A DNA stretch of 17,963 nucleotides, taken from Streptomyces sp. NBC_00289 (lineage in GTDB: Bacteria; Actinomycetota; Actinomycetes; Streptomycetales; Streptomycetaceae). The translations under genes and the position numbers were made by a program. Shown piece by piece: positions 2,294 through 17,963 of this stretch (position 1 is its first letter; every line of letters begins with the position of its first letter). Location of the stretch: positions 1-17,963 of the forward strand of contig NZ_CP108050.1 in assembly GCF_041435115.1 (NCBI RefSeq), in the 5' to 3' direction. The notes below the pieces were generated by a model. It was not told the DNA's origin. It saw nothing but the letters and a program-made list of their open reading frames with translations, and did not search any database.

Positions 2294-2694
2294 CGCAGCC
2301 GCTTCAGCAGCGCCCGCCTGGTCGCGTCGTGCTCCCGAGCGAGCCTGAGCACCTCGCGGAAGACCTCGGCCTTGTCGAGGTTGCGGCGCTGCGCCTGCAC
2401 CCGCAGTTCGAGGACGAACTGGTCGACCTCCGCCGACTCCTCCGGGTCGAAGCGGATCGTCGTCGGGATCGCGTCGGCAGCGGAGGGCGGTGGGCGCCGG
2501 CCCCCGCGCGTCCGTCCCGGCCGGGGAGGCTGAGCGGGCGGCAGCTCGTGCTCCTGGTCGCGCCTTTCCTCCGGGGCCTGGTCCTCCTCTGTGCCCCGGC
2601 CGCCGACCTTCAGCGGCCCCGTCTTCGGCGTCAGCTTCGGCGGGGCGAGGGGCGAGGACGACGCGGGGATGTTCCGCTCCTTCGGCGGGTTCAC
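2290..2694 (-). CDS. ParB-like centromere-binding protein (ribbon-helix-helix)
   Basis: A 134-residue protein starting at a GTG that overlaps the parA stop (GTGA). The N-terminal half is disordered and rich in proline, arginine and glutamate. The C-terminal part has the order of a ribbon-helix-helix fold: a strand TTIRFD (about 80-85), helix SAEVDQFVLELRVQ and helix DKAEVFREVLRLAREHD, followed by a basic tail ending LLKRLR. Small RHH proteins directly downstream of a parA-type ATPase are standard type Ib plasmid partition adaptors; they bind arrays of short direct repeats and stimulate the ATPase through the flexible N-terminus. The 12-bp repeat arrays upstream of parA are the likely target. 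No HTH-type ParB CTPase motifs are present. Confidence 0.8.
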   Translation of the reverse strand: MNPPKERNIPASSSPLAPPKLTPKTGPLKVGGRGTEEDQAPEERRDQEHELPPAQPPRPGRTRGGRRPPPSAADAIPTTIRFDPEESAEVDQFVLELRVQAQRRNLDKAEVFREVLRLAREHDATRRALLKRLR

Positions 2695-3500
2695 GCGGCC
2701 GGCACCTCCTTCACGAACCGCTGGGCCAGGTTCTCGAACACGCCCCGCACCTCGGAGCTGTCGCTGATCTCGTCCAGGGGCTGCGCGTACTCGTCTGCGT
2801 TCGTGATCAGCGACCGGCGCGGGACCACGCCCCACACCTGGTCCCCGAAGATCTGCCGGGCCCCGTCGAGCTGCCCGACGTGCGCCCCGACGCGCATGTC
2901 GTACGCGCTCACCACGAGGCCCAGGAAGCTCAGGTCCGGGTTGCCCAGGTCGTCGGCAGAGGCCGCCACGAAGTCCCGGTAGCGCACCGCGGCTTCGATG
3001 CTGTCGTACTCCGGCTCGGTGCTGGCCAGTGCGAAGTGACAGGCCCCCAGCGCCATCTGGGTCAGGTGCCCGAGCGAGGGAGGGCAGTCGATAAGGACGT
3101 AGTCCAGATCGTCGTCGGTGCCCTTCAGCGACTTCGCCAGCCGCCGCCAGGCGCCCCGCATCCCGGCCTCGGTCGCCCGGTCCTCCAGCGTGTAGCGCGC
3201 CGGGATCAGCCTGATCCGCTCCGCGTACGGCGTCGTCCAGCCGATCGGCTGCCAGACCTCGGCGGCCTGGCCCTCGAAGACGATCTGCTTCTCGTTGTAT
3301 TCGATGGCCTCCGCTGCGGTGAGCTGCGGAGCGTCGGGGTTGTCCTTCCACCCCAGCCGCCGCGAGGCGTTGCCCTGCGGGTCGAAGTCGACCACGCCGA
3401 CCCGCTTGCCCGCCTTGGCGAGGGCTTCGGCCAGGCGGACGGCCAGGGTGGTCTTCTTCGCCCCGCCCTTGTTGTTGCCGATCGCCACGCGTGTCGCCAT
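2691..3500 (-). CDS. parA: ParA-type partition ATPase
   Basis: A 269-residue MinD/ParA-family ATPase that would segregate the plasmid by forming ATP-dependent, nucleoid-bound gradients. The ATG at 3500 is chosen because a full AGGAGG lies upstream (3505-3510); an upstream extension in frame lacks one. The deviant Walker A reads NNKGGAKKTT at residues 9-18, Walker A' is VVDFDPQGNAS (36-46) and Walker B is YVLIDCPPSLG (134-144). The usual KGGVGKTT glycine before the catalytic lysine is a lysine here. The length is normal for short ParAs lacking an N-terminal HTH. It is the first gene of a three-gene coupled operon. Upstream lies a large repeat region that probably includes the centromere. Confidence 0.93.
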   Translation of the reverse strand: MATRVAIGNNKGGAKKTTLAVRLAEALAKAGKRVGVVDFDPQGNASRRLGWKDNPDAPQLTAAEAIEYNEKQIVFEGQAAEVWQPIGWTTPYAERIRLIPARYTLEDRATEAGMRGAWRRLAKSLKGTDDDLDYVLIDCPPSLGHLTQMALGACHFALASTEPEYDSIEAAVRYRDFVAASADDLGNPDLSFLGLVVSAYDMRVGAHVGQLDGARQIFGDQVWGVVPRRSLITNADEYAQPLDEISDSSEVRGVFENLAQRFVKEVPAA

Positions 3501-3543
3501 CGGTCCTCCTTCGTCGGTGTCGTCGGAAGCGTAGAGCCTGCCT

Positions 3544-3579
3544 GGTGGCCCCACGAGGCCGCGAGGCCGTGCGTCCACC
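3544..3579. repeat. Dispersed GAGGCC element, copy 2, in the parA leader
   Basis: CCACGAGGCC (3551-3560) and GCGAGGCC (3561-3568) form a direct repeat, flanked by GGTGG (3544-3548) and CCACC (3575-3579) as an inverted pair. It sits 44-79 bp upstream of the parA start, where an operator or leader structure could act. A further small hairpin of GGGGG-N5-CCCCC lies at 3597-3611. Confidence 0.4.
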
Positions 3580-3636
3580 AAAGGGTGACTCCGGTCGGGG
3601 GCTGCACCCCCGTATGCGTAAGTGCTGCCGGAAACG

Positions 3637-3732
3637 TGTAGCCCCTGTAGCCCCTGTAGCCCCCGCGCAGGTCAGAGCCCTGTTTTCGGGGGCTACACAG
3701 GTAGCCCCGGGGTAGCCCCCGGGTGTAGCCCC
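3637..3732. repeat. Iterons (T/G)GTAGCCCC, candidate replication origin
   Basis: Seven copies of a 9-bp motif occur. TGTAGCCCC is repeated in tandem at 3637-3645, 3646-3654 and 3655-3663. An inverted GGGGCTACA lies at 3689-3697. Direct copies follow at 3700-3708, 3711-3719 and 3724-3732. The segment 3689-3732 has the same architecture as 8262-8305 inside the replication gene. Tandem 9-bp copies are nearly one helical turn apart, as expected for an initiator-binding array. Confidence 0.7.
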
Positions 3733-3793
3733 CCGCGTTAACTGCCCCGGAGAGGGCCTTTTGAGGACCGGTCCGGGGCCCGTCGCGTCACCA

Positions 3794-3872
3794 GGTCGCG
3801 CCTCTGGTCGCGCCTCTAGTCGCGCCTCTAGTCGCGCTCCTGGTCGCGTCTCTGGTCGCGCCTCTGGTCGCA
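3794..3872. repeat. 12-bp tandem array A (GGTCGCGCCTCT)
   Basis: About 6.6 units lie in strict 12-bp register. Identical GGTCGCGCCTCT units are at 3794-3805, 3806-3817 and 3854-3865. Variants are at 3818-3829, 3830-3841 and 3842-3853, and a partial unit is at 3866-3872. There are no spacers, so it is not a CRISPR. Its position upstream of parA suggests a centromere or origin role. Confidence 0.75.
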
Positions 3873-3920: not shown

Positions 3921-4011
3921 AACGGGGGTGGGCCGCGCCGACTACTTCCCTACAGAGGGTCTGTGCGAAGTCGGACCCGATGCCGTCGACCGCTTCGGCC
4001 AGGAGCTTGCT

Positions 4012-4083
4012 CTACAAGTGGCCCTACAAGTTGCTCTACAAGTTGCTCCTCAAGTTGCCCTGCAACCTGCTCTACAACTTGCC
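4012..4083. repeat. 12-bp tandem array B (CTACAAGTTGCT)
   Basis: Six contiguous 12-bp units run from 4012 to 4083. Units 4024-4035 and 4036-4047 are identical; the others differ at one to four positions. The array is more AT-rich than its surroundings, which would suit an unwinding element or a protein-binding array. Open frames across it encode only a monotonous repeat, so coding is unlikely. Confidence 0.75.
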
Positions 4084-4100
4084 CCCAGCCGACGCCCGGC

Positions 4101-4410: not shown

Positions 4411-4465
4411 CCTGTCGCGCCGACGTCAGGGGCGGGGGTCGATGGGGGTCAGCCCAGCTCACGGC

Positions 4466-4515
4466 GTGCGACAGGCGCCCGTGCGACAGGCCGTGCGACA
4501 GGCCGTGCGACAGCA
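4466..4515. repeat. 12-bp array C (GTGCGACAGGCC)
   Basis: GTGCGACAGG occurs at 4466, 4481 and 4493, and GTGCGACAG at 4505. The last three units are in exact 12-bp register and the first is offset by 15 bp. It is the third 12-bp array within 720 bp, adjacent to the terminator of the next gene. Confidence 0.7.
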
Positions 4516-4948: not shown

Positions 4949-5716
4949 TCACCCGTTCGGCTTCTTCCGGGCCGGAGCCAGCAGCAGCAGGGCCGCGCGC
5001 AGGCTCACGTCCAGGCCGTCCTCCTCGCGGTCGAAGCCGAGCGAGGAGGCGAAGGCGCCGGCCTGCCCCGGCAACGGCATCATCGGGAACCGCGCGCCGT
5101 GGAACTCCTCGGAGCTCCCGGCGAAGTCCCGCGCGTACTGGTGGAACTCTTCGGCAGTGCGGTACCCGTAGTCGTCCGCGCCGTCGGGCAGGTAGCCGGG
5201 GTAGATGCCGTGTTCGCGGGAGCCCCACGCCAGGCTGAGCAGCAGCGCGGCCCGGGTCTCCGGTTCGGCCCGTTCCCACGTCTGGGTCACCTCCTGGTCG
5301 TGGAGGGCGTCCTCGAGGAGCGGGTGGCGGTCGATGGCTTCGGCCAGGGTCATGGTGACGTCGGGGATCTGCATCGCGATGCCCAGCGGGTGCCCGGCGC
5401 CGGCCATCTCGCCGAACGCGCTCACCTGGTCTCCCCCGTCCTCGGGGTCGACGTCGTGCTCGGGGTTCCATCCGCTCTCGGTCATGCCGTACAGCTCCGG
5501 GTCGTCCACGATCGCCTCTTGGATCTGCCGACCGATGGTCTCCATGTGCTTGGCCATCGACGGGGTGGTGCCGGGGAACCGGGTGGTCGTCTGGAGTGCC
5601 ATGACGATCAGGTAGAGGTCTTGCCGGTGCATCTTCAGCGAGACCGGCGGCATGTCCTTCCACCTGGCGTACGCGGCTTCCAGGACGTCGACGCCGGGGG
5701 GCTTCTGGTCGGTCAC
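4949..5716 (-). CDS. Protein of unknown function, 255 residues
   Basis: Starts at a GTG preceded by GAAGGAG, reading MTDQKPPGVDVLEAAYARWK. Overall it is acidic and probably soluble; helical stretches include LYLIVMALQTTTRFPG (near 34-49) and TRAALLLSLAWGSREHG (near 153-169). It ends in an alanine/leucine helix and a short basic tail KKPNG. I see no catalytic or membrane motif and do not recognise the family. Codon use matches the neighbouring plasmid genes. It is first in a two-gene unit; its leader contains a GAGGCC-type hairpin and the inverted repeat GATGA-AGCC-TCATC (5745-5758). Confidence 0.75.
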   Translation of the reverse strand: MTDQKPPGVDVLEAAYARWKDMPPVSLKMHRQDLYLIVMALQTTTRFPGTTPSMAKHMETIGRQIQEAIVDDPELYGMTESGWNPEHDVDPEDGGDQVSAFGEMAGAGHPLGIAMQIPDVTMTLAEAIDRHPLLEDALHDQEVTQTWERAEPETRAALLLSLAWGSREHGIYPGYLPDGADDYGYRTAEEFHQYARDFAGSSEEFHGARFPMMPLPGQAGAFASSLGFDREEDGLDVSLRAALLLLAPARKKPNG

Positions 5717-5810
5717 GGCTTCTCCTTCGGTCGGGTGGTGCTCTGATGAAGCCTCATCCTGCCGTCTGCCGGAGGCTCTACGGCGGGGATTCAGCCGATT
5801 AGGTGACCCC

Positions 5811-5875: not shown

Positions 5876-6454
5876 TCAGTTGTAGGTGACGTTCTCGATG
5901 TTGGACGCTGCGGTGTCGATCTGGCTGGCGACCGGCATGTTCCAGTGGTCCGCGATGAGCTGCGCGCACTCGCTCCACTTGTTCGCCTCGTAGGCGAGGA
6001 TGAACGCCTTCGCCTTGTTGCCGGTGAGGGTGGCCTCCATCTGCCCGTACCAGTCGTTGTTGGAGATCCTCCAGTCGCCGTCCGCCTCCGCGTCGATGCT
6101 GGACGGGAACGACCGCTCCTTCTCAGGCGCGACCGGACCAGCCGGGCCCCCGCCGCCCTCGCCTACTTCACCGCCCCCAGCGGGCGCGGTCGGCGGTGCG
6201 GCCGGGGGAGCCGACGGAGCTGCCGGGGGTGCGGCGGGCGGTGCCTCCGGGGCGGGAGCCTTCTCCTTCTTGCCCTTGCCCCGGCCGAACAGCCGCCCGA
6301 GCAGACCGCGCTTCTTCTCCCCGCCGCCTTCGGTGCCGGCCGCAGGCTCCGGAGCCTGCGGGGTCGGTGCCGGGGTCGGTGCGGGCGCCTGCTCCGGGGC
6401 GGGTCCCTGCTCCTGGTCCTTCTTGCCGAGTCCGAACTTCCACCACTTGGCCAT
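5876..6454 (-). CDS. Basic proline-rich protein paired with the replication protein; candidate terminal protein
   Basis: A 192-residue protein whose ATG lies 6 bp after the stop of the 1226-residue gene, so the two are surely co-transcribed and probably coupled. It has three parts: a basic N-terminus (MAKWWKFGLGKKDQE), a long disordered proline/alanine/glycine region with a strongly basic patch GLLGRLFGRGKGKKEK near the middle, and a compact C-terminal domain of about 75 residues (from DWRISNNDWYGQMEA to ENVTYN) containing Tyr, Ser and Thr side chains. There is no signal peptide. In Streptomyces, tap is followed by tpg, which encodes a terminal protein of about 185 residues. Matching order and size make this a candidate end-capping protein, but I see no sequence similarity to Tpg, so that role is inference. 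Confidence 0.7.
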   Translation of the reverse strand: MAKWWKFGLGKKDQEQGPAPEQAPAPTPAPTPQAPEPAAGTEGGGEKKRGLLGRLFGRGKGKKEKAPAPEAPPAAPPAAPSAPPAAPPTAPAGGGEVGEGGGGPAGPVAPEKERSFPSSIDAEADGDWRISNNDWYGQMEATLTGNKAKAFILAYEANKWSECAQLIADHWNMPVASQIDTAASNIENVTYN

Positions 6455-6460
6455 GGCCGA

Positions 6461-9400
6461 TCACTCCCCCCGCTCAGCGGTGTACTGCTCGATTGCGTTG
6501 TGGATGAAGACTCGGTGGTCCTCGGTGACCTGCTCGAACATCGGCAGGAAGTCGGCCATCGGCACGGTGTTCTCCGCCGTCCACTGCCCGCCCTGCGACC
6601 CGAGCTTCATGCCGTCGGGCTTCGCCAGCTCGGGGTCGGCCTCGTTGCTCGCGAACCCGGCGGCGTCCACGTTCACGTACAGCGGCGTGACGCCCTCCTC
6701 GCGGGCGAACGCCACCAGGTTGCGGTACATGTTCGCCGTGGCGTGCGACAGCAGCATGAAGGCCCAGTCCGGCCGCCAGTAGATGTCCTTGGTGTACGCC
6801 TCGCCCGTGGCGTAGTCGAGGCGGGGACCCTTCGAGCGGCCCAGGTAGCCGCGGAACGACTGGTACACCGCGCCGTTGATCTGCTTGGCGAACTTCGCGC
6901 CCGGACGCCCGGCCTCGGCCGCCGCCACGATGTAGACCCGCGAGTCCTTGACCTTCTTGTAGAAGCCCTCCAGGGCCCGCTTCGAGTCCTCCCAGACCCA
7001 CGCCTCCAGGATCTGCGGTTCCCACGTCGGCCACAGCACCTTCAGCAGGTCCATGCTCGGAGTGGCCACCCAGTAGCCGCCCTCCTCAGCCTCCTTGAAC
7101 ACCAGCGGCGGCAGGCCCGGCAGCGCGACCAGGCCCGGGATCTCAGCGATGCGCCAGTACCCGGCGAACCGCTTGTTGTACGCGATCGTCCCGCCGTCGA
7201 AGTGGGTCGGCTCCCCGATGCCGAGCTGCACGTTGGAGTACGCGGGCAGCCAGGCCGCCGTCTTGTCGTACTCCTGGATCCAGGCCGCCGCCCGCTGCTC
7301 CTGGGTGAACTCGGCCAGCGGCTTCTCCCAGATCTGCGGGACCATCGCCCAGTTGACGCAGTCCTTGTTCTCCGGGTCAGCCGGGGGCACGATCCGCCGG
7401 CGGATCGCCTCGCACGCGACGTCCGGACGGCCCAGGCCGCCCGCGAAGTCCTCGCCCGTCTTGTTCGGGGAGGCGTAGTAGGGCGTCACCTCCGGGGAGG
7501 CGTCGCGGCCGTGCCGGGTGGACAGGGTCCACACCATCAGCGCGTCCAGCAGGACTTCCGGCGTCTCCGGTCCGGCCAGACCGGCCAGGCGGGCCTGCCG
7601 AGCCTTCTTGATCCGGTCGTCGTAGGCCGGGACCGCGACCGACAGCCGCTCGTCACGGGCCTTGTCGGCCAGGACCAGCGTCATCCAGCAGGACAGAGCC
7701 GCCGGACGCATCGAGGCGATCGGCCCGCCCTCGGTCGGCGTCGCCCACTCGTGAGCGACCGGCGTCTGGGCTCCGATCCTGCGCACGTACTCCGTCGGAC
7801 CCAGCCCCTTCGCCTCCCGCTCCTGCGTGACACCCAGCGCCTGACGCTCCTTGAGCGTGGGCAGGCCCATGGGCTCCATGGCCTCCTCGTGGACGTACAG
7901 GGTCTTGATCCCGTACGCCTGCATGAGGGCCGGGACCTGGTCGACGTGCCGGGGGAGCGAGACGTGTACCGGTTCGTGGTTGGGCAGGAACAGCCGCCCA
8001 TTGCCCAGCACCGCGAACCGCAGCGCGGACGCGGTCCGGCCCTTCGCCTTGAACTCCAGCTCCAGCCACTCGCGGTCACAGCCCGGCTCGTCCGGCTGGA
8101 TCATCCGCGCGGCAGGGAACACGGCCGTCGTCGTGGCCTCGTGAGCCCGCGAGGCCGTGGCCTCTTCAGCAGGGGAGAGATCCTCCTCGGAGAACTCGAA
8201 GGGCAGCGGTGTAGGACCCGCAGCCCCGGTAGCCCCGTCGCTGGTCGGGGCCTGGTCGGCCGGGGCTACCGGGCCATCTGAGGGGTAGCCCCCGGGTGTA
8301 GCCCCGCCCGGGAACTGCCCGTCAGAACCGCCGTCCGGCTCGTCGCCCGGCTCGTCGGGAGCGAACAGCTCAGCCGCCCGGCGGACGTCGAAGCAGTGCA
8401 TCCTCTCCCCGAGTCCGTGACCCCGGATCGCCTTCGGCAGCTTGCGCTGCACGTTCCGGCCCGCGTCGCGCTTGTGGACCCCGCGGTCGCGGAGCTCCCC
8501 CAGCGCGGCCGACACGTTGTCGATCCCGGCCTGGAGGGCGGCCTCCTGGACGACGGGGTTGACCACCCACCACTCGCTCGTGTCCGGGTTGTAGAACCCG
8601 CGCAGCCGCCGGAAGCCCTCCTTGGAGGCAGTCGGCAGGTCGTCCATGTCGGGGAACGCGGACTTCTCGATCCGCAGCGCGTCCAGGGCCTCCCACAGCT
8701 TCTCGTGGTCGGAGACGTTGTTCTCGGCAGCGACCTGGATGGCGGCCTGGAGGCGCGCGGCGGCCTCCTTCTCAGCGACCTCTCCCAGCGTCGGCACGCC
8801 GATGGCCTGCCCGAGCATGTGGGCACCGACGACCCAGGCCATGTGCATTTCCGCGATCGTGCCCGCGATCCCGCCCTCTGCAGGGCGGTACTTCGCGCAC
8901 AGCTCAAGGTGGAACTTCTTCAGCTTGGCCAGGTTCTCCGCCCGGTACATGCCCTTGCGGATCGCCCACTCCAGCGGCCAGCCGCCGAACTCCTTCGCCA
9001 GCCGCTTCAAGCGCTTGGAGATGTGCTCCGCTCCACCCAGGCCGGGGTCGGCCGGGGCGCCCTCGGAGTCGACGAACTTGTTCGGGAAGAACGGCGCCGA
9101 CACCTCGTGCAGGCGCGAGGCCAGGTCTTCCGTCTGGCCCGAAAACTTCAGCGGCTCGTTGCTGGTCGAGAACGCAGCCGAGTTCCAGAACCCGTCCGAC
9201 TCGCGAGGGCTGCCGTCGGCGCTGCCGATGGAGCGCTGTGCGCCGGCCACGTACTGGCTGATCTCGCGGGACGACTCCTTGATGGAGCGGCCCGAGCTGC
9301 TGTGCTCATCCATGCCCAGCGGCAGGAAGCCCCGGAGCCTGAGCGTCTGGCCGATGCCCTGCTTGCTCGCGTCCCAGCTGATCAGGATGCGCTGGCGACG

Positions 9401-10141
9401 GGGCTTGATGTCACCGAAGCAGGCGCACGACACGGTGAGGATGGTCGACTTGCCCTGCTGCCCGGGGCCGTAGGCGTTGACCATGTGCGGCAGCACGTCC
9501 AGGGCGTCGAAGACGGGCCCGGCGAACATGAAGCCCATGCACAGCGCGGACTTCCCGCAGTCGCAGGCCCAGGCACCGATCTCGTCCCACGCCTCCCGGG
9601 CGTCCTTCTCCTCGCCCCGCAGGACGCGGTACCCGAGGGTCTGAGCGTCAGCCTCCGGGAAAACCAGGTCCCCGGCTTCGTTGTAGTACGTCCGAGCCGA
9701 GACGATCGGAGCCTTGTCGCCCGCCTCGCGGATCAGCCTGGCGAACGCGTGGCGCTCGTCGTTCCCGGTGGGCCGACGCTGGCCGGCCTTCGAGGACCAG
9801 GTGCCACGGTCCAGTTCGTCTTCGGTGTAGATGCGTGCGCGCCGCTGGCGCTTGCCGATGCCCAGGTACTCGGTGCGGATGTCCTCGCCGTCGTCGGTGA
9901 GGTGGACGATCTGAGCGGTGATCCTCGGCACCTGGCCGATGGGAAGGAGAGCGTCCTCAGGGTTCTGCCGGTGCAGGATCATCCGATCTGCTTCCCGGTA
10001 GAACCAGCCCCGCTTCATGCCCGCGATCGGGCGGCATCCCGCCGGGGTTCCGCCCCGTTCGAGGTTCGAGACCGACCCGCGGCGACGCTGCGGCGGGACG
10101 TCTCCGTCGGTCGACGGGGTCTCGGTTGACTGGTGAGTCAC
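6461..10141 (-). CDS. Replication protein: DUF927-type ATPase/helicase fused to a Tap/PolB-like domain
   Basis: A 1226-residue protein with a GTG start preceded by AGAAAGG (10153-10147). The N-terminal half matches the DUF927 helicase-like pattern: Walker A GPGQQGKS (225-232), SWDASKQG (255-262), Walker B LPLGMDEH (273-280), a sensor-like STSN (325-328) and ASRLHE (341-346). A Pro/Gly/Asp-rich linker spans about 590-670. The C-terminal half has family-B-polymerase-like motifs: YDKTAAWLPAY as motif A (D959), KFAKQINGAVY as motif B (K1083-Y1093), and LYVNVDAAGF as motif C, where Asn1157 replaces the first catalytic Asp. IYWRPDW (about 1120-1126) and the residues after it resemble what I remember of Streptomyces Tap telomere proteins. 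The usual Tap N-terminal HTH is absent. It probably initiates replication and/or handles telomeres. Confidence 0.8.
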   Translation of the reverse strand: MTHQSTETPSTDGDVPPQRRRGSVSNLERGGTPAGCRPIAGMKRGWFYREADRMILHRQNPEDALLPIGQVPRITAQIVHLTDDGEDIRTEYLGIGKRQRRARIYTEDELDRGTWSSKAGQRRPTGNDERHAFARLIREAGDKAPIVSARTYYNEAGDLVFPEADAQTLGYRVLRGEEKDAREAWDEIGAWACDCGKSALCMGFMFAGPVFDALDVLPHMVNAYGPGQQGKSTILTVSCACFGDIKPRRQRILISWDASKQGIGQTLRLRGFLPLGMDEHSSSGRSIKESSREISQYVAGAQRSIGSADGSPRESDGFWNSAAFSTSNEPLKFSGQTEDLASRLHEVSAPFFPNKFVDSEGAPADPGLGGAEHISKRLKRLAKEFGGWPLEWAIRKGMYRAENLAKLKKFHLELCAKYRPAEGGIAGTIAEMHMAWVVGAHMLGQAIGVPTLGEVAEKEAAARLQAAIQVAAENNVSDHEKLWEALDALRIEKSAFPDMDDLPTASKEGFRRLRGFYNPDTSEWWVVNPVVQEAALQAGIDNVSAALGELRDRGVHKRDAGRNVQRKLPKAIRGHGLGERMHCFDVRRAAELFAPDEPGDEPDGGSDGQFPGGATPGGYPSDGPVAPADQAPTSDGATGAAGPTPLPFEFSEEDLSPAEEATASRAHEATTTAVFPAARMIQPDEPGCDREWLELEFKAKGRTASALRFAVLGNGRLFLPNHEPVHVSLPRHVDQVPALMQAYGIKTLYVHEEAMEPMGLPTLKERQALGVTQEREAKGLGPTEYVRRIGAQTPVAHEWATPTEGGPIASMRPAALSCWMTLVLADKARDERLSVAVPAYDDRIKKARQARLAGLAGPETPEVLLDALMVWTLSTRHGRDASPEVTPYYASPNKTGEDFAGGLGRPDVACEAIRRRIVPPADPENKDCVNWAMVPQIWEKPLAEFTQEQRAAAWIQEYDKTAAWLPAYSNVQLGIGEPTHFDGGTIAYNKRFAGYWRIAEIPGLVALPGLPPLVFKEAEEGGYWVATPSMDLLKVLWPTWEPQILEAWVWEDSKRALEGFYKKVKDSRVYIVAAAEAGRPGAKFAKQINGAVYQSFRGYLGRSKGPRLDYATGEAYTKDIYWRPDWAFMLLSHATANMYRNLVAFAREEGVTPLYVNVDAAGFASNEADPELAKPDGMKLGSQGGQWTAENTVPMADFLPMFEQVTEDHRVFIHNAIEQYTAERGE
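8133..8164. repeat. Dispersed GAGGCC element, copy 4, inside the replication gene linker
   Basis: GTGGCCTCGTGAG (8133-8145), GCGAGGCC (8149-8156) and GTGGCCTC (8157-8164) form overlapping direct and inverted repeats. They lie within coding sequence for a low-complexity segment that can tolerate such DNA. Confidence 0.4.
8228..8305. repeat. Iterons (T/G)GTAGCCCC inside the replication gene
   Basis: Direct copies lie at 8228-8236, 8284-8292 and 8297-8305, with an inverted copy at 8262-8270. The 24 bp at 8282-8305 are identical to 3709-3732. The inverted copy begins 20 bp upstream of the 24-mer in both places. The DNA encodes roughly residues 612-638, in the disordered linker between the two halves of the protein. 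An origin embedded in the initiator gene is plausible. Confidence 0.7.
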
Positions 10142-10405: not shown

Positions 10406-10418
10406 ACACCACATTCGG

Positions 10419-11099
10419 TCAGGAGATCGAGAGGGGGTGTCCAGGGGCGTACACGCCTTCCCCCACGCCGATCACCTTGTGGCCGGTCACGTAGATGCTG
10501 CGCAGGAGGACGACGGAGTAGATGCCGTCACCTAGCCCGAGGGCTTGGCGGTCTTCCTCGGTGGCGATCCGGGACGTCACCTCCTTGGAAGAGACCTCAA
10601 CGCTGTTGCCAGAGCGATCCTCGTAGACCGCTTGCCACGTGGGGTCACAGGCTTGGGGCTCATCAACCTCGGGGACGACCTCGGCAACGTCCAGGTGAAC
10701 CCAGGACTGAGACGCCTGAAGGATGGAGTCTCCGCGGTTCACGGTCCGCACCCGGTTGACGCACTCGCCCTCTCCGAGGTGTGCGGCGACCCAGTCGGGG
10801 GGCTGTACCCGGGTGCTGCTCTTGTGGTGAATCGTCTCCCCCGGCTGCGTGATGCCCCGGATGCGCTTGGTGCCAGCGATGAGTTTCCTACGGTCGGAGA
10901 CGAACACGCCCTTGCCCTGCTGGCTGTGGACGTAGCCCTCCGCCTTGAGCAAGGCGATAGCGCGGTAGACCGCGTTGTCGCTCAGGGCGAACTGCTTCAT
11001 CAGGGCCTGGGTCGGCGGGAGCTTGTTGCCTGCCTCCAGCGTGCCTCGGTCGATGCGGGCCTTCAGATATGCAGCCATGCCAGCAACGGTGCCTGTCAT
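10419..11099 (-). CDS. GntR-family (HutC/UTRA type) transfer repressor, KorA-like
   Basis: A 226-residue regulator with an ATG preceded by GGGAGG. The N-terminal winged helix (about 1-70) has the GntR pattern LPPTQALMKQFALSDNAVYR, then LKAEGYVHSQQGKGVFV. The remainder (about 85-220) looks like a UTRA ligand-binding domain ending in GIYSVVLLRSIYVTGHKVIGVGEGVYAPG. In Streptomyces plasmids such as pSAM2 and pIJ101, GntR-type Kor proteins repress the transfer gene, whose uncontrolled expression harms the host. Here it is divergent from the transfer operon, with three palindromic operator-like sites between them, so it probably represses the operon and itself. The inducing ligand is unknown. Confidence 0.9.
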   Translation of the reverse strand: MTGTVAGMAAYLKARIDRGTLEAGNKLPPTQALMKQFALSDNAVYRAIALLKAEGYVHSQQGKGVFVSDRRKLIAGTKRIRGITQPGETIHHKSSTRVQPPDWVAAHLGEGECVNRVRTVNRGDSILQASQSWVHLDVAEVVPEVDEPQACDPTWQAVYEDRSGNSVEVSSKEVTSRIATEEDRQALGLGDGIYSVVLLRSIYVTGHKVIGVGEGVYAPGHPLSIS

Positions 11100-13451: not shown

Positions 13452-13844
13452 ATGAACCACAACGAGATCCAGCACTTCGAGCCGCAGCCGCTGCCCGTCA
13501 TCCCGCCCGGCATGACCGTCGCGTACACCGTCCAGGGCCAGCCGGTCTACGTCCCCCAGCAGCAGGCCCAGCCGCAGCCGGTCATCGTCCAGATGCCGTC
13601 CCAGCCGATCCCGACCTGGCTCCGCAACGGCCTGATCGCCTCCGTCGGCCTGTTGATCCTGTGCACCCCCGCCGCCGTCCTCCTGGTCGTCGCCGCCCCC
13701 GCCATCGCCGCTACCGGCGTCGCCGTGGCGGGGGCAGGCCAGGCCATCGCCTACAGCGGCATCGGCGTCGGCATCGGCGTGATCGGCGTCGCCGCCGCCA
13801 TCAAGAGCCTGCGCGAGACGCCCCGCGCCGCGAAGAAGAAGTGA
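13452..13844 (+). CDS. Membrane protein, Spd-like
   Basis: A 130-residue protein, ATG at 13452 after AAGGAG. The N-terminal 55 residues are hydrophilic and rich in Pro/Gln (VPQQQAQPQPVIVQMPSQP). Then come LIASVGLLILCTPAAVLLVV and a following alanine/valine stretch, then a Gly/Ile-rich segment GIGVGIGVIGVAAAI and a basic tail RETPRAAKKK. Two to three membrane helices are likely. This layout is typical of small hydrophobic proteins preceding traB in Streptomyces transfer operons; the exact role in plasmid spread is inferred. Confidence 0.8.
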   Translation: MNHNEIQHFEPQPLPVIPPGMTVAYTVQGQPVYVPQQQAQPQPVIVQMPSQPIPTWLRNGLIASVGLLILCTPAAVLLVVAAPAIAATGVAVAGAGQAIAYSGIGVGIGVIGVAAAIKSLRETPRAAKKK

Positions 13845-13862
13845 CCGTCACCCGAACCCTGA

Positions 13863-13895
13863 TGACGTCACGAGGCCGTGAGGCCGCGACGTCAC
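13863..13895. repeat. Dispersed GAGGCC element, copy 5, with ACGTCAC ends
   Basis: The intergenic stretch holds GACGTCAC, CACGAGGCC, GTGAGGCC and a second GACGTCAC in a row. It shares GTCACGAGGCC with the hairpin at 5811-5836 and ATGACGTCAC with 1978-1987. Confidence 0.45.
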
Positions 13896-13921
13896 AACAA
13901 GCCACGAAAGGCAGCCTGACC

Positions 13922-14971
13922 ATGAAGAAGTCCCTCGGCTGGGTGAAGATCACCCTCCTGTCCGTCACGGCCCTGGTGATGGTCGGCGTCGGCGCCCTCG
14001 GCGGTGTCGGCACCTACTCCAACCTCTCCCACCGCTACGGAGGCGAGACCGCCCTCGGTGCCCTCGGCGCCGGTGAAGGCGCGACCGCCGTCCTGGCCCT
14101 GGTCCTCCTCGTCACCACCGTGTTCAACCGGCCTGCCCCGAAGCTGGTCCGCCTCGGACTGTGGGCCCTGCCGGCCGCCGCCGCCGTGATGGGCGCGACC
14201 GCCGCCAACGGCACGGGCCAGACGATCGTGTACGCCCTGACCCCGATGGCCATCACCGCGTCGGCTGAGTCCGTCGCCTACCTCGCACGCCTCGCCGTCG
14301 TCCACCAGGAGGGCCGCGACGTCGAAGCGGAGGCCCGCGCCGCCGCCCTCGTCCGTGACCTGGCCTACCACCAGGCCCGCGCCGCCGCCCACCCGGACAA
14401 GAAGGTCCGCGAGAAGTCGGTGAAGAAGTCCTGGAAGCTCGCGGCGAAGGTCGGCACGGGCGACACGACCCTCGGGACGGACCTGCTGGACGTCCAGCGC
14501 GTCCGCCTCACCCAGGGTGCCGACATCGCCTTGGAGCGGATGTTCGCCCCCGGCCTGTCCGCCACGGCCCCCGCCCTCGCCCCGGCATCCGCCGACACGG
14601 TCCCCGCCATCCTCGCCGCGTCCGCTGATGACGCCACGAGCCCGCGCACCCACGAGGCCACTATCCACGCGGACACGAACGGATATCCGGCCGACGAGGG
14701 CTCTGACCAGGAAGAAAGCACCGAGAACGTCCGCCCGACCCTCAAGGTCGTCCGCGACGTCAAGGCCAAGGGCAAGTCCATGCGCGCCGACGTCCGCGAA
14801 ATGGTCGCCAGCGGCGTCACGAACGTCCGGCACGTGGCCGACGCCATCGCCACCCGCCACGGCCGCGACGCCGACGACAAGGGCTTCCAGGCCACCGTCG
14901 GCAAGTACGTCCGCGAGGCCAAGGCGGACATCCCCCAGGACGACAGCGCCAACACCGGCCAGTACCTCTGA
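13922..14971 (+). CDS. SpdB-like membrane protein with C-terminal DNA-binding-like tail
   Basis: A 349-residue protein, ATG at 13922. The first 125 residues hold about four membrane segments (ITLLSVTALVMVGVGALGGV, ATAVLALVLLVTTVF, LGLWALPAAAAVMGATAA and IVYALTPMAITASAESVAYL), resembling the SpdB/DUF2637 layout of Streptomyces plasmids. A charged helical middle (EAEARAAALVRDLAYHQARA) and a disordered acidic region follow. The final 60 residues (VREMVASGVTNVRHVADAIA, then FQATVGKYVREAK) look like a helix-turn-helix. SpdB proteins help plasmid spread through the mycelium, and DNA binding has been reported for a family member. It directly precedes traB. Confidence 0.82.
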   Translation: MKKSLGWVKITLLSVTALVMVGVGALGGVGTYSNLSHRYGGETALGALGAGEGATAVLALVLLVTTVFNRPAPKLVRLGLWALPAAAAVMGATAANGTGQTIVYALTPMAITASAESVAYLARLAVVHQEGRDVEAEARAAALVRDLAYHQARAAAHPDKKVREKSVKKSWKLAAKVGTGDTTLGTDLLDVQRVRLTQGADIALERMFAPGLSATAPALAPASADTVPAILAASADDATSPRTHEATIHADTNGYPADEGSDQEESTENVRPTLKVVRDVKAKGKSMRADVREMVASGVTNVRHVADAIATRHGRDADDKGFQATVGKYVREAKADIPQDDSANTGQYL

Positions 14972-15051: not shown

Positions 15052-17538
15052 ATGCACAGCATGTCCGCCCTCGCGGCGAACACCACCACCACACCCCCGG
15101 CCGTCGGCGGCTGGGGCCTCGCCGCTGTCGTCGTTGTCCTCCTGGTCATCGCCACCAAGAAGGGCGCGGGTGCCGCCGCCACCGGCCAGACCGGCAAGGT
15201 CCGCAGCTTCTTCCGCGCCCTGATCAGCGCTTTCAAGGCCCTGGGCAGCATCTTCCGCGCCATCTGGGCCGTCGTGCGCTTCTACGGCGGCCGGGAGCTC
15301 CGGGGCGAGCCCCGCAGCACCGCCACGTTCCTCCGCGCCGGAACCCCGATCGGTGGGCCCGTGCAGGCCCCGCCCACCGTCTCCATGGACTCCGTGGCCG
15401 CCCTCCCGCCGAAGGTGAGCCTGGTCAAGAAGCCGCGCCGCCAGCCCAGCCCCTGGGCCCGGGACGCCGCCGCCTGGCTCAACGACTACAGCGGCCGGGG
15501 CGCCCGTGCCCTCGACCGCGCCGTCCGTACGGCCCTGTGGAGCGCCCGCGCCGCCGGGAAGCTCTGGCGCTTCCTGCGGGCCATCTGGCGCTTCCTCGCG
15601 GCCGTCTACGCCTTCCTGGCGCCGGTCGTGGCCGCCCTCGCCCGCGCGGCGCGTGGCTGGCACTGCTGGCCGTACGCCGCCCGCGGCCTGGCCCGCCTGG
15701 CCCTCACCGCCGCCCTGGTCGGCCTCGCCGTCCCGGCCTGGCGCACCTGGACCGTCCTCGGCCTGGTCCTGGTCGCGGCCGGCGCTTTCGCCCTCGCCCA
15801 CCGCTTCCGCCCGACCCCGCCCGGCGATGACGCCGTGTACGGGCCCCGGATCTGGGCCGTCCTCCGTGACGACCTGGACCTCCCCGGAGACGAGCCGCGC
15901 GAGAACTGGCTGCGCCTCCCGGCCTCCCTGGCAGCCCCGGACGCCCGGATCGTCATCCGCCTGCCCTGGACCTGGCGCGGGTCCGACATCGACCGCGAGA
16001 ACCTGTCCGCCCTGGTCAACAGCCGTATCCCCGGGCAGTGGGTCGGCCGGGTCAGCCTGACCGGCGAGACCTTCACCGCCGTCTACACCCACAAGCCCGC
16101 CCCCAAGCCGCCGGCCCCCGTGCCCACGCCTCCCAAGGCCGTCGACATCGAGGAGCCGCGCGTCCAGGAGGCCCTGGCCAACCTCGCCCCGGAGGAATTC
16201 CTCCTCGGTGCAGACGAGAACAACGAGCTGGTTGTCCGCCGGATGGCAGGCGAAGTTTCGCACTGGGCCTACTCCGTCGGCTCCGGTGGTGGAAAGTCCA
16301 CGACCCTCCAGTGGCTCGCAGTCCAGATGATTCTGAAGCGCGGAACCATCGTCGGAGTTGACCCGAAGCTCATCAGCCTTGCGCCCCTCGAAGGGGTGCC
16401 CGGCGTATTCCTCTACAAGGACCCCGAGAACGGCCGCGATATGCGCAACGTTCTTTACTGGGTGGCCGACGTCGTGATGGCTCGCTTTTACGAGATCGAG
16501 CAGGGCACCGCGAAGGAATTCGACCCGCTGTATGTGTTCCTGGAGGAATGCAACGAGCTTGCCGGAATCCTCCGGAACGTGTGGAACAAGATTCGCACTA
16601 AGAAGGGTGATGACAAGGACCCCGCCGCCGATCCGATTTGGGAAGAGGCCGTTGCCCGCATTCTCCGCTTCGGCCGCGCGGCGAATGTCCACCTGCTCGC
16701 AGTGTTCCAGGACTTCAAGGACAACGAATTCAGCGGCCAGTCCCTCCGTCCGCTTTTCCCGTTCAAGGTGCTCGGCAGTTATGACCCCCACCAGTGGGAG
16801 CGCATTACCGGACTGCCCAAGAGTGTTATGCCCCCGAGCGTGCGGAAGCCGGGCCGAATGGTCACCGTGACCGACGGAGTTCCTTTCTCCTACCAGACCC
16901 CCTATCTGTTCCTCGACGAGGAGAACGAGGACGGGGAAATGGACAGGCGCGGTGCCAGCGAAGAAGAGGCCAAGGTCCTCTACAACAAGCTCTACAAGGA
17001 GCTGCGCGAGCGCCACGGGTGGAGCGACCGCGGCCTCTACAGCGAGCCGCCGGCCAACAGCCCCCGGGGCGTCCCGCGGCTCCTCCAGGACCGCCTGGAG
17101 GGCCTGTCACGTGACACCGACCCCAACACGCCGAACGGGGGCTCTGAGGGGGGTCTGAGCGACGAAACCGCAGGTCGCGGTGTCACGCTCCCTGGCAGTG
17201 TGACACCCGGCGTGACACCCCAGCGTGACAGGCTGCGCCTGGTCCCCGGCCAGGGCGGCGCCGAGGGCTCAGAGGACCCCCTGGCGGCCCCCGTGCTCCT
17301 CAGCGTGGCCGAGATCGCCCGCGAGATGCAGGCCCGCGGCTACGACATCGAAGCGGGCCTGATCCGCACCCACAAGTCGCGCCGGGACAAGGGAATGAAC
17401 AACGGATTCCCCACCGGTATCGGTGAGGGGCGCGACGAGAAGTTCACGCTGGCCCAGCTCATCACCTACTACGAGCAGCGCGGCATCGAGAAGCGCGAGG
17501 AAAGCGAGGCAGAGGCAGAGCAGGACGACGCTGTCTGA
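15052..17538 (+). CDS. traB: TraB-type FtsK/SpoIIIE DNA translocase for conjugation
   Basis: An 828-residue protein, ATG at 15052 with AAGGGG upstream. Residues 20-36 form a first membrane helix, and three more lie at about 172-252. The ATPase core has Walker A GSGGGKST (410-417, K415) and Walker B-like LYVFLEE (E498, E499), followed by LLAVFQDFK. The C-terminal 100 residues (SVAEIAREMQARGYDI, then HKSRRDKGMNNG) resemble a winged-helix/HTH DNA-recognition domain. Streptomyces TraB proteins form hexameric pores and move double-stranded plasmid DNA between hyphae, recognising 8-bp repeats. Codon use is clearly less GC-biased across the core (about 16192-16980) than on either side. It is the last gene of the operon, followed by a U-tract terminator. 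Confidence 0.92.
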   Translation: MHSMSALAANTTTTPPAVGGWGLAAVVVVLLVIATKKGAGAAATGQTGKVRSFFRALISAFKALGSIFRAIWAVVRFYGGRELRGEPRSTATFLRAGTPIGGPVQAPPTVSMDSVAALPPKVSLVKKPRRQPSPWARDAAAWLNDYSGRGARALDRAVRTALWSARAAGKLWRFLRAIWRFLAAVYAFLAPVVAALARAARGWHCWPYAARGLARLALTAALVGLAVPAWRTWTVLGLVLVAAGAFALAHRFRPTPPGDDAVYGPRIWAVLRDDLDLPGDEPRENWLRLPASLAAPDARIVIRLPWTWRGSDIDRENLSALVNSRIPGQWVGRVSLTGETFTAVYTHKPAPKPPAPVPTPPKAVDIEEPRVQEALANLAPEEFLLGADENNELVVRRMAGEVSHWAYSVGSGGGKSTTLQWLAVQMILKRGTIVGVDPKLISLAPLEGVPGVFLYKDPENGRDMRNVLYWVADVVMARFYEIEQGTAKEFDPLYVFLEECNELAGILRNVWNKIRTKKGDDKDPAADPIWEEAVARILRFGRAANVHLLAVFQDFKDNEFSGQSLRPLFPFKVLGSYDPHQWERITGLPKSVMPPSVRKPGRMVTVTDGVPFSYQTPYLFLDEENEDGEMDRRGASEEEAKVLYNKLYKELRERHGWSDRGLYSEPPANSPRGVPRLLQDRLEGLSRDTDPNTPNGGSEGGLSDETAGRGVTLPGSVTPGVTPQRDRLRLVPGQGGAEGSEDPLAAPVLLSVAEIAREMQARGYDIEAGLIRTHKSRRDKGMNNGFPTGIGEGRDEKFTLAQLITYYEQRGIEKREESEAEAEQDDAV
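17105..17232. repeat. GTGACA-type repeats in the traB 3' end, candidate transfer locus (clt)
   Basis: A palindrome TGTCACGTGACA lies at 17105-17116. Further sites are GTGTCAC (17180-17186), TGACACC (17201-17207), GTGACACC (17212-17219) and GTGACAGG (17225-17232). They lie in the segment coding the linker before TraB's C-terminal DNA-binding-like domain. TraB recognition repeats of 8 bp near traB are known from other Streptomyces plasmids. Confidence 0.5.
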
Positions 17539-17752: not shown

Positions 17753-17963
17753 GAATTCAAGAAAGGGGCAAAAATGGGGAAGATCGGAAATTCTGAGAAT
17801 TCAGAAAATGGGCCGATGCGCGAAGCGCGAGGCTCTGGAATTCGAATTCTTGGCCGCGCCGATAAACGGCGAGAAACCCCCGGCTGAAAGTCGCGAAGCG
17901 GCTTTCATAAAGGCCGCAAGCGGCCTCGGATTCCGAATTCGAATTCGCTCCGCGAATTCATGG
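17753..17963. repeat. Right end: telomere-like palindromes, GAATTC-rich
   Basis: GAATTC occurs at 17753, 17797, 17838, 17844, 17935, 17941 and 17954. Hairpins include CGCCG-ATAAA-CGGCG (near 17859-17873), GAAAGTCGC-GAA-GCGGCTTTC (17886-17906, one wobble pair), AGGCCGC-AA-GCGGCCT (17911-17926) and GAATTCGC-TCC-GCGAATTC (17941-17959). The last is the exact reverse complement of 35-53, so both ends present GAATTCGCGGAGCGAATTC reading inward. Beyond this element the two ends are not homologous. Confidence 0.7.

Follow-up and report, generated by a model that had tools for sequence, protein, structure and literature searches.

The 17,963-bp contig NZ_CP108050.1 of Streptomyces sp. NBC_00289 (contig G000:C5 of an 11.0-Mb genome in six contigs) was analyzed over its whole length, and we refer to it as the window. 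Its central feature is a gene on the minus strand (6461-10141) encoding a 1226-residue fusion protein in which a helicase is followed by a variable linker and by a polymerase domain resembling Tap and family B polymerases (PolB). The open reading frame (ORF) starts with GTG and is intact, with no internal stop. An earlier note on this DNA had proposed the fusion from a set of short motifs, all of which we located in the protein: GPGQQGKS (residues 225-232), MDEH (277-280), STSN (325-328), YDKTAAWLPAY (958-968), KFAKQINGAVY (1083-1093), IYWRPDW (1120-1126) and LYVNVDAAGF (1154-1163). Directly downstream lies a small gene for a protein of 192 residues. A partition ATPase gene, parA (2691-3581, minus strand; Pfam AAA_31, E 1.9e-27), and a gene for an FtsK/TraB-like conjugation ATPase (15052-17538, plus strand; Pfam FtsK_SpoIIIE, E 4.2e-4, 20.3 bits vs a cut-off of 24) provide the context.

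The fusion is conserved in a family of small linear plasmids

A protein search returned at least 79 homologues at E<=1e-3, scored among the 7985 best candidates; all homologue counts given here are lower bounds. Most of these proteins (69 of 79) span no less than 94% of the query. Of the 78 homologues listed (above P0080), 77 have a longest contig that does not exceed 19,063 bp, the exception measuring 131 kb, and for 51 of these 77 it falls between 13 and 19.1 kb. Full-length homologues with 34-69% identity are encoded on five named plasmids of 15-17 kb, four of which are recorded as linear and one, L025, as circular. The main gene order is common to the five: the fusion is grouped with the small gene and the partition genes, and transfer-type genes lie on the opposite side; a GntR regulator adjoins the fusion region in four of them. 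We conclude that the helicase-polymerase fusion is real and is conserved in a family of small linear plasmids.

Counted by genome, the full-length protein is rare. Among 41 genomes searched for relatives, the complete fusion occurs in one, the window's own genome, and 11 other matching genomes contain Tap-like stretches alone. A scan of genome contigs with the single sequence as query gave two loci. Six peptide patterns of the window protein found no match in IMG/VR, a scan that is informative for close relatives only, and a phage collection yielded DUF927 matches alone, in one phage present as two records.

The fusion as such is already known, and the architecture is less new than supposed, because plasmid pRL2 is said to encode one protein similar to Tap and helicase and a second resembling Tpg (PMC8743542, citing Zhang et al. 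2006). A gene named pRL2-8 is present on three of the five named relatives. The pRL2 passage of PMC8743542 mentions neither a polymerase fold nor iterons.

The N-terminal half is a Cch-type helicase

By sequence, the N-terminal half is a Cch-type (DUF927) AAA+ helicase in which Walker A, Walker B and sensor are present, and unwinding activity is predicted. Its core covers residues ~184-354 (9080-9592, minus strand), with Walker A at 9446-9469, the DEH/Walker B motif at 9302-9313 and the sensor STSN at 9158-9169. DUF927 is the only Pfam match in the fusion protein (residues 184-285, E 3.9e-6), and a profile of 49 family members matches the Cch helicase of SCCmec (PDB 5dgk) at E 2.4e-10. Residues K231, E279, N328 and R343 are invariant in all 72 family members longer than 1100 residues, the window protein included; counts out of 72 below refer to this set.

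Cch contains DUF927, is MCM-like and has the SaPIBov1 Rep helicase among its relatives (PMC7581432). The window protein shares the AAA+ core and DUF927 with Cch and SaPI Rep but differs in carrying a polymerase domain on the same chain; in a further difference from Cch of SCCmec, the gene annotations of the five named relatives mention no recombinase. The Taps that we compared carry a helix-turn-helix (HTH) domain, PF01381, and most also PF13560, whereas the window protein has no N-terminal HTH match in Pfam. With DUF927 as its sole Pfam domain, the protein has a helicase where Tap has a short HTH, as the earlier note supposed.

The C-terminal half is related to Tap

The NCBIfam model telomere_Tap (NF047542) matches residues 938-1196 at E 2.6e-10, with 39.7 bits against an equivalog cut-off of 600 bits that is not reached, and a profile comparison with a host Tap by hhalign gives Prob 98.0 and E 2.9e-13. 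The segment IYWRPDW (6764-6784, minus strand) is common to Tap, which reads WRPDI. Both the fusion and the Tap kinship of its C-terminal half, as put forward in the earlier note, are thus borne out. Two outcomes that the note had named as adverse, an unrelated C-terminal domain and homologues confined to circular plasmids, are both absent. Like the Tap/Tpg pair of archetypal Streptomyces telomeres, the window combines a homologous C-terminal domain with a small gene directly downstream; it differs in the low bit score, in having a helicase instead of the HTH, and in a neighbour that is not Tpg by sequence.

The C-terminal half is predicted to have a phi29-like polymerase fold

A predicted model of residues 694-1226 (6464-8062, minus strand), the domain that we assign to Tap-type, phi29-like protein-primed family B polymerases, matched the phi29-type PolB fold over 399 residues. 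We also built a Tap-like profile from 28 C-termini (14 of the window family, five Taps and nine others) and aligned it by hhalign to a template of eight phi29-like phage polymerases, which gave E 3.2e-5, Prob 72.8 and a score of 50.0. The reversed template scored 14.4, and 60 column shuffles had a mean of 14.6 and a maximum of 24.4. When subsets were compared, with 40 shuffles each, the nine other plasmid proteins alone scored 48.6 (shuffle maximum 18.6) and the set without the window family 31.7 (shuffle maximum 18.5).

The profile alignment places D959 on the motif A aspartate of phi29, N1157 and D1159 on the motif C DTD, and KLGSQGGQWTAEN on KLGYWAHE. The corresponding phi29 residues are D249, D456 and D458 in the usual numbering, with D249 and D458 as metal ligands. 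Motif A, YDKTAAWLPAY (7238-7270, minus strand), contains D959, which aligns with the aspartate of phi29 FDVNSLYP and is invariant in 72/72 members and in 28/28 Tap-like C-termini. In motif C, LYVNVDAAGF (6653-6682, minus strand), N1157 is variable and D1159 is D in 72/72; together with D959, G1098 and R1140 it is invariant in all 28 C-termini. The motif B region, KFAKQINGAVY (6863-6895, minus strand), includes K1086 (K in 71 of 72), and MKLGSQGGQWTAEN (6569-6610, minus strand) aligns with phi29 KLGYWAHE. The fold and the motif order A, B, C that the earlier note read from the sequence are supported by the model and the alignment, as is the catalytic-type position of both aspartates. The C-terminal half is therefore predicted to adopt a protein-primed, phi29-type PolB fold that keeps both metal-aligned aspartates.

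The likeness to phi29-type polymerases thus comprises the fold, the motif A aspartate, the second motif C aspartate and the KLG-W-E segment, and it has limits. The window protein lacks a PF03175/PolB match in Pfam and the first motif C aspartate, and its comparison with phi29 polymerase as a single sequence was not significant; the relative on pGnB68 matches PF03175 at E 0.024 and 14.0 bits, under the cut-off of 25.8. Protein-primed family B polymerases have an exonuclease motif DxE; the strand equivalent to the exonuclease site reads FAVLGNG and lacks a carboxylate, in a register taken from alignment ranges and not from residue-level superposition. The structural match stops short of the thumb, the last residue of the model, 533, aligning with phi29 chain residue 515. 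The phi29 thumb presumably begins about where the window protein ends. A chain that stops there would fit the short products of Tap, whose synthesis on terminal protein stops at 13 nt (PMC4513846).

Several results weigh against the polymerase assignment. The global TM-scores of the predicted model are modest (0.38-0.41), and the predicted fold of Tap itself is poor (pLDDT 47). Neither the window family alone (20.6; shuffle maximum 28.4) nor the Taps alone (16.6; shuffle maximum 22.9) matched the eight phage polymerases significantly. Taken with the subsets above, these scores mean that it is the diverse relatives that carry the link to phage polymerases, and that the window family and Tap are tied to it by their homology to those relatives. 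Finally, the motif B lysine is out of register: its column holds K in 14/14 Tap-like sequences outside the window family and G1090 in the window protein, where K1086 lies one turn upstream.

The earlier note held that the polymerase fold is inactive and used for binding. On such a reading the C-terminal half would only bind telomere hairpins, and a host polymerase would do the patching. The asparagine at the first motif C aspartate and the displaced motif B lysine could be signs of such a loss, and Tap does bind telomere hairpins (PMC4513846). However, position 1157 drifts freely in the family (N in 16 of 72, Y in 26 and D in one, the non-N residues being otherwise mostly Y or R) while both metal-aligned aspartates stay invariant, so inactivity is not supported by N1157. 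Tap and Tpg alone, moreover, synthesize DNA in vitro (PMC4513846). Of the note's reading of this residue, its alignment with the first aspartate of the phage DTD stands, and its use as evidence of inactivity is not supported. We regard an inactive fold used for binding as rather unlikely.

The neighbouring gene encodes a candidate terminal protein

The 192-residue ORF directly downstream of the fusion (5876-6454, minus strand) encodes a protein with a proline-rich N-terminus and a conserved C-terminal domain. A protein alike in size and make-up occupies the same spot in 7/7 other family replicons examined, and tblastn detects homology on the five named plasmids (E 5e-16 to 2e-5). Among nine more distant relatives, six have a gene in this slot with a telomere_Tpg match at E<=1e-3 (the best, 3.1e-10, in NBC_00691); the match is weak in pPR2 (0.031), and none was found in pNPL1 or pFSYMDG01. 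From the position of its gene, the 192-residue product is most likely the terminal protein of the plasmid.

Less favorable to this assignment is that the protein itself has no Pfam or NCBIfam match and no detectable Tpg homology. No Tpg match was found on the window at E<=1; five above the cut-off lie on contigs C2 and C4. The relatives' Tpg matches are also weak (19-40 bits vs a cut-off of 90), and some of these proteins match other HTH families as well; for the pBD2 neighbour, the RacA model outscores Tpg.

Iteron arrays of conserved geometry lie upstream of parA and within the fusion gene

The 8-mer GTAGCCCC occurs 11 times in the window against 0.61 expected, a count reached in 0/200 shuffles. 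Seven copies (3638-3732) form a perfect array upstream of parA (3636-3747), and four (8229-8305) lie in the part of the fusion gene that encodes the linker, in a degenerate 112-nt repeat of that array (8209-8320, residues ~608-645; 74% to 3636-3747) that is a candidate internal origin. The replicon L032 has ten copies, three in its linker (10408-10471) and seven (13803-13897) just before parA at 13954. L023 has a single GTAGCCCC; its linker and that of L033 each hold nine copies of another 8-mer, GGAGCCAC, in arrays at 5588-5760 and 9942-10113, respectively.

The seven copies are spaced 9, 9, 33, 12, 11 and 13 with the fourth inverted in the parA-side arrays of both the window and L032, and the same spacing forms the core of the linker arrays of L023 and L033. 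Neither 11 nor 13 is divisible by three, and the arrays are therefore no peptide repeats. In two of eight replicons, the window and L032, repeated 8-mers of the linker recur upstream of parA; the parA-upstream region was guessed for L032 and L033, and parA of L032 was located later. The repeated-8-mer test gave no clear array in L024-L027. Further 12-nt tandem arrays occur between parA and a gene for 255 residues (3794-3871, 4007-4084 and 4465-4513).

We read these arrays as predicted DNA-binding arrays, either origin or centromere. An origin inside the fusion gene is an attractive candidate because SaPI Rep initiators bind iterons adjacent to the genes that encode them, as does Cch2, a member of another helicase family (PMC7581432). 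The arrays also bear on whether the plasmid might be copied end to end from protein-primed telomeres, as in full phi29-like replication, with the fused helicase displacing the strand and no internal origin. A phi29-like polymerase and a helicase in one chain would suit such a scheme, and the replicon is near phi29 in size (19,282 bp). However, iteron arrays of conserved geometry suggest an internal start, the missing thumb match and the absence of visible exonuclease carboxylates argue against processive copying, and the 13-nt limit of Tap synthesis points the same way (PMC4513846). We consider full-length copying from the ends unlikely.

The contig ends resemble telomeres

Telomere-like palindromes occupy both ends of the window. 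The left, par-side end (1-144; DNA fold z -4.56) holds palindromes at 1-19, 35-53, 88-106, 111-125 and 124-144, and the right, tra-side end (17911-17960; z -2.35) holds them at 17911-17926 and 17941-17959, the latter being the 19-mer of 35-53. This 19-mer, GAATTCGCGGAGCGAATTC, lies near both ends, which otherwise differ. Perfect, short-loop hairpins account for 106 nt per 250 bp at the left end and 51 at the right, against an interior mean of 8.5 (standard deviation 13.7); the left-end value is reached in 0/345 interior windows and the right-end value in 2.6%. Fold energy alone is no telomere marker, because an interior control in the iteron region (3700-3849) comes close to the left telomere with z -4.07; other controls gave +1.55, -1.75 and -0.21.

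In six of eight window-type replicons (the window, L024, L025, L026, L032 and L033), at least one end exceeds every interior window for hairpins; those of L026 belong to a different, TGTGGCAGG type. No rise above the interior was seen at either end of L023 or L027, nor at the left end in L024, L025, L026 and L032; the L027 record stops inside kilB. In the circular record L025 the right end is high and the left end zero, yet both read like the ends of linear relatives. The circular record L031 has zero hairpins at its ends. Just outside the palindromes at both ends, as read by eye, are GCCGGGCC in L032 and GGCCCAGCCG in L033; on the tra side these strings form the extreme end, and on the other they lie 46 (L032) and 7 nt (L033) inside the contig end. 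Their recurrence suggests a short shared tip and a window that lacks its last few nucleotides. From its palindromic contig ends we infer that the plasmid is linear.

Closed-hairpin telomeres were considered and set aside, the examined ends not continuing into their own complement. In the window, L032 and L033, the left and right telomeres are unlike each other save for short shared strings; the printed ends of pNPL1 and pPR2 are identical. On the chromosome, broken tap fragments with stops lie mirrored ~140 kb from both ends (G000:C1, 140035-140541 and 10485630-10486136). The left chromosome end (L013) differs from the left ends of C2-C4 in its CCTCCGG hairpins, and the chromosome may for this reason carry another telomere type.

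Tap-like domains are joined to several replication modules

Tap-like C-terminal domains follow CHC2/Toprim primase-type domains in Curtobacterium pC1c, Glutamicibacter pGnB68, Nonomuraea and Streptomyces NBC_00691, the last of which has DUF927 in addition. In Xylanimonas pXCEL01 the CHC2 match is below the cut-off, and Rhodococcus pBD2 shows weak DnaG-like matches only. On pNPL1 the Tap-like domain follows DUF927; pFSYMDG01 has a Tap match and no named N-terminal domain; and pPR2 has DUF927 and no NCBIfam Tap match, yet aligns at both aspartates. The "telomere-binding" large proteins of Rhodococcus, Curtobacterium, Glutamicibacter and Nonomuraea resemble the window protein in the Tap-like C-terminus and small downstream gene and differ in size (1641-1831 residues), in CHC2 or Toprim N-termini in three, and in having no DUF927 match. 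In L042-L046 and L028, the Tap-like domain is C-terminal in proteins of 1427-1831 residues, most with primase-type N-termini, and each is followed by a gene for ~180-205 residues with a weak Tpg match.

These relatives raise the alternative that the polymerase half primes at an internal origin, as the A-family CCPol-MP beside Cch2 does in SCCmec, and that telomeres are not its substrate. SCCmec offers a precedent for a helicase with a special polymerase (PMC7581432), primase-type domains occur in several relatives, and the records of two relatives give their plasmids as circular (pFSYMDG01, L031; pXCEL01, L044), which also weighs against the reading that we favor below. However, the domain is homologous to Tap, a telomere enzyme; weakly Tpg-like genes adjoin it in six of nine relatives; and six of eight window-type replicons, L023 and L027 excepted, have at least one hairpin-rich end. 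Priming confined to an internal origin seems to us improbable.

A model for replication and telomere completion

We consider it likely that the window protein serves to replicate a linear and probably conjugative plasmid of 18 kb, its helicase opening the plasmid internally and its PolB half filling the ends via a terminal protein. The helicase would load at the iterons, one array of which lies in the gene's own linker, and open the plasmid from within. The polymerase half could then attach the initial nucleotides to a terminal protein, for which the 192-residue product of the next gene is the likeliest candidate, and the 3' overhangs left at the palindromic ends would be filled in, as by Tap and Tpg. 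Synthesis would be short and free of proofreading, given that the chain stops short of the thumb and seems to lack the exonuclease carboxylates.

Passages of PMC4513846 (2015) describe Tap and Tac as lacking a DNA polymerase motif, term Tap a new polymerase class and state that Streptomyces encodes no B-family polymerase; a passage of a 2026 survey (PMC12926913) describes B- and X-family members as typically lacking in Actinobacteria. Our search, limited to open-licence literature, found no paper naming Tap a family B polymerase. The chances appear to us evenly balanced that Tap and its relatives across Actinobacteria form an unrecognised phi29-like PolB branch that has repeatedly been fused to helicases or primase-type domains, and that one polypeptide couples the opening of an origin in its own gene with the completion of telomeres.

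The main value of this work lies in assigning Tap-type telomere proteins to the phi29-like family B polymerases and in naming two residues. If the assignment is true, the enzyme that initiates end patching on Streptomyces chromosomes would gain a fold, an active site and named residues, and the upkeep of bacterial telomeres would be linked to the protein-primed replication of phages and adenovirus. Plasmids, in turn, would be seen to weld such a polymerase to replicative helicases and primase-type domains.

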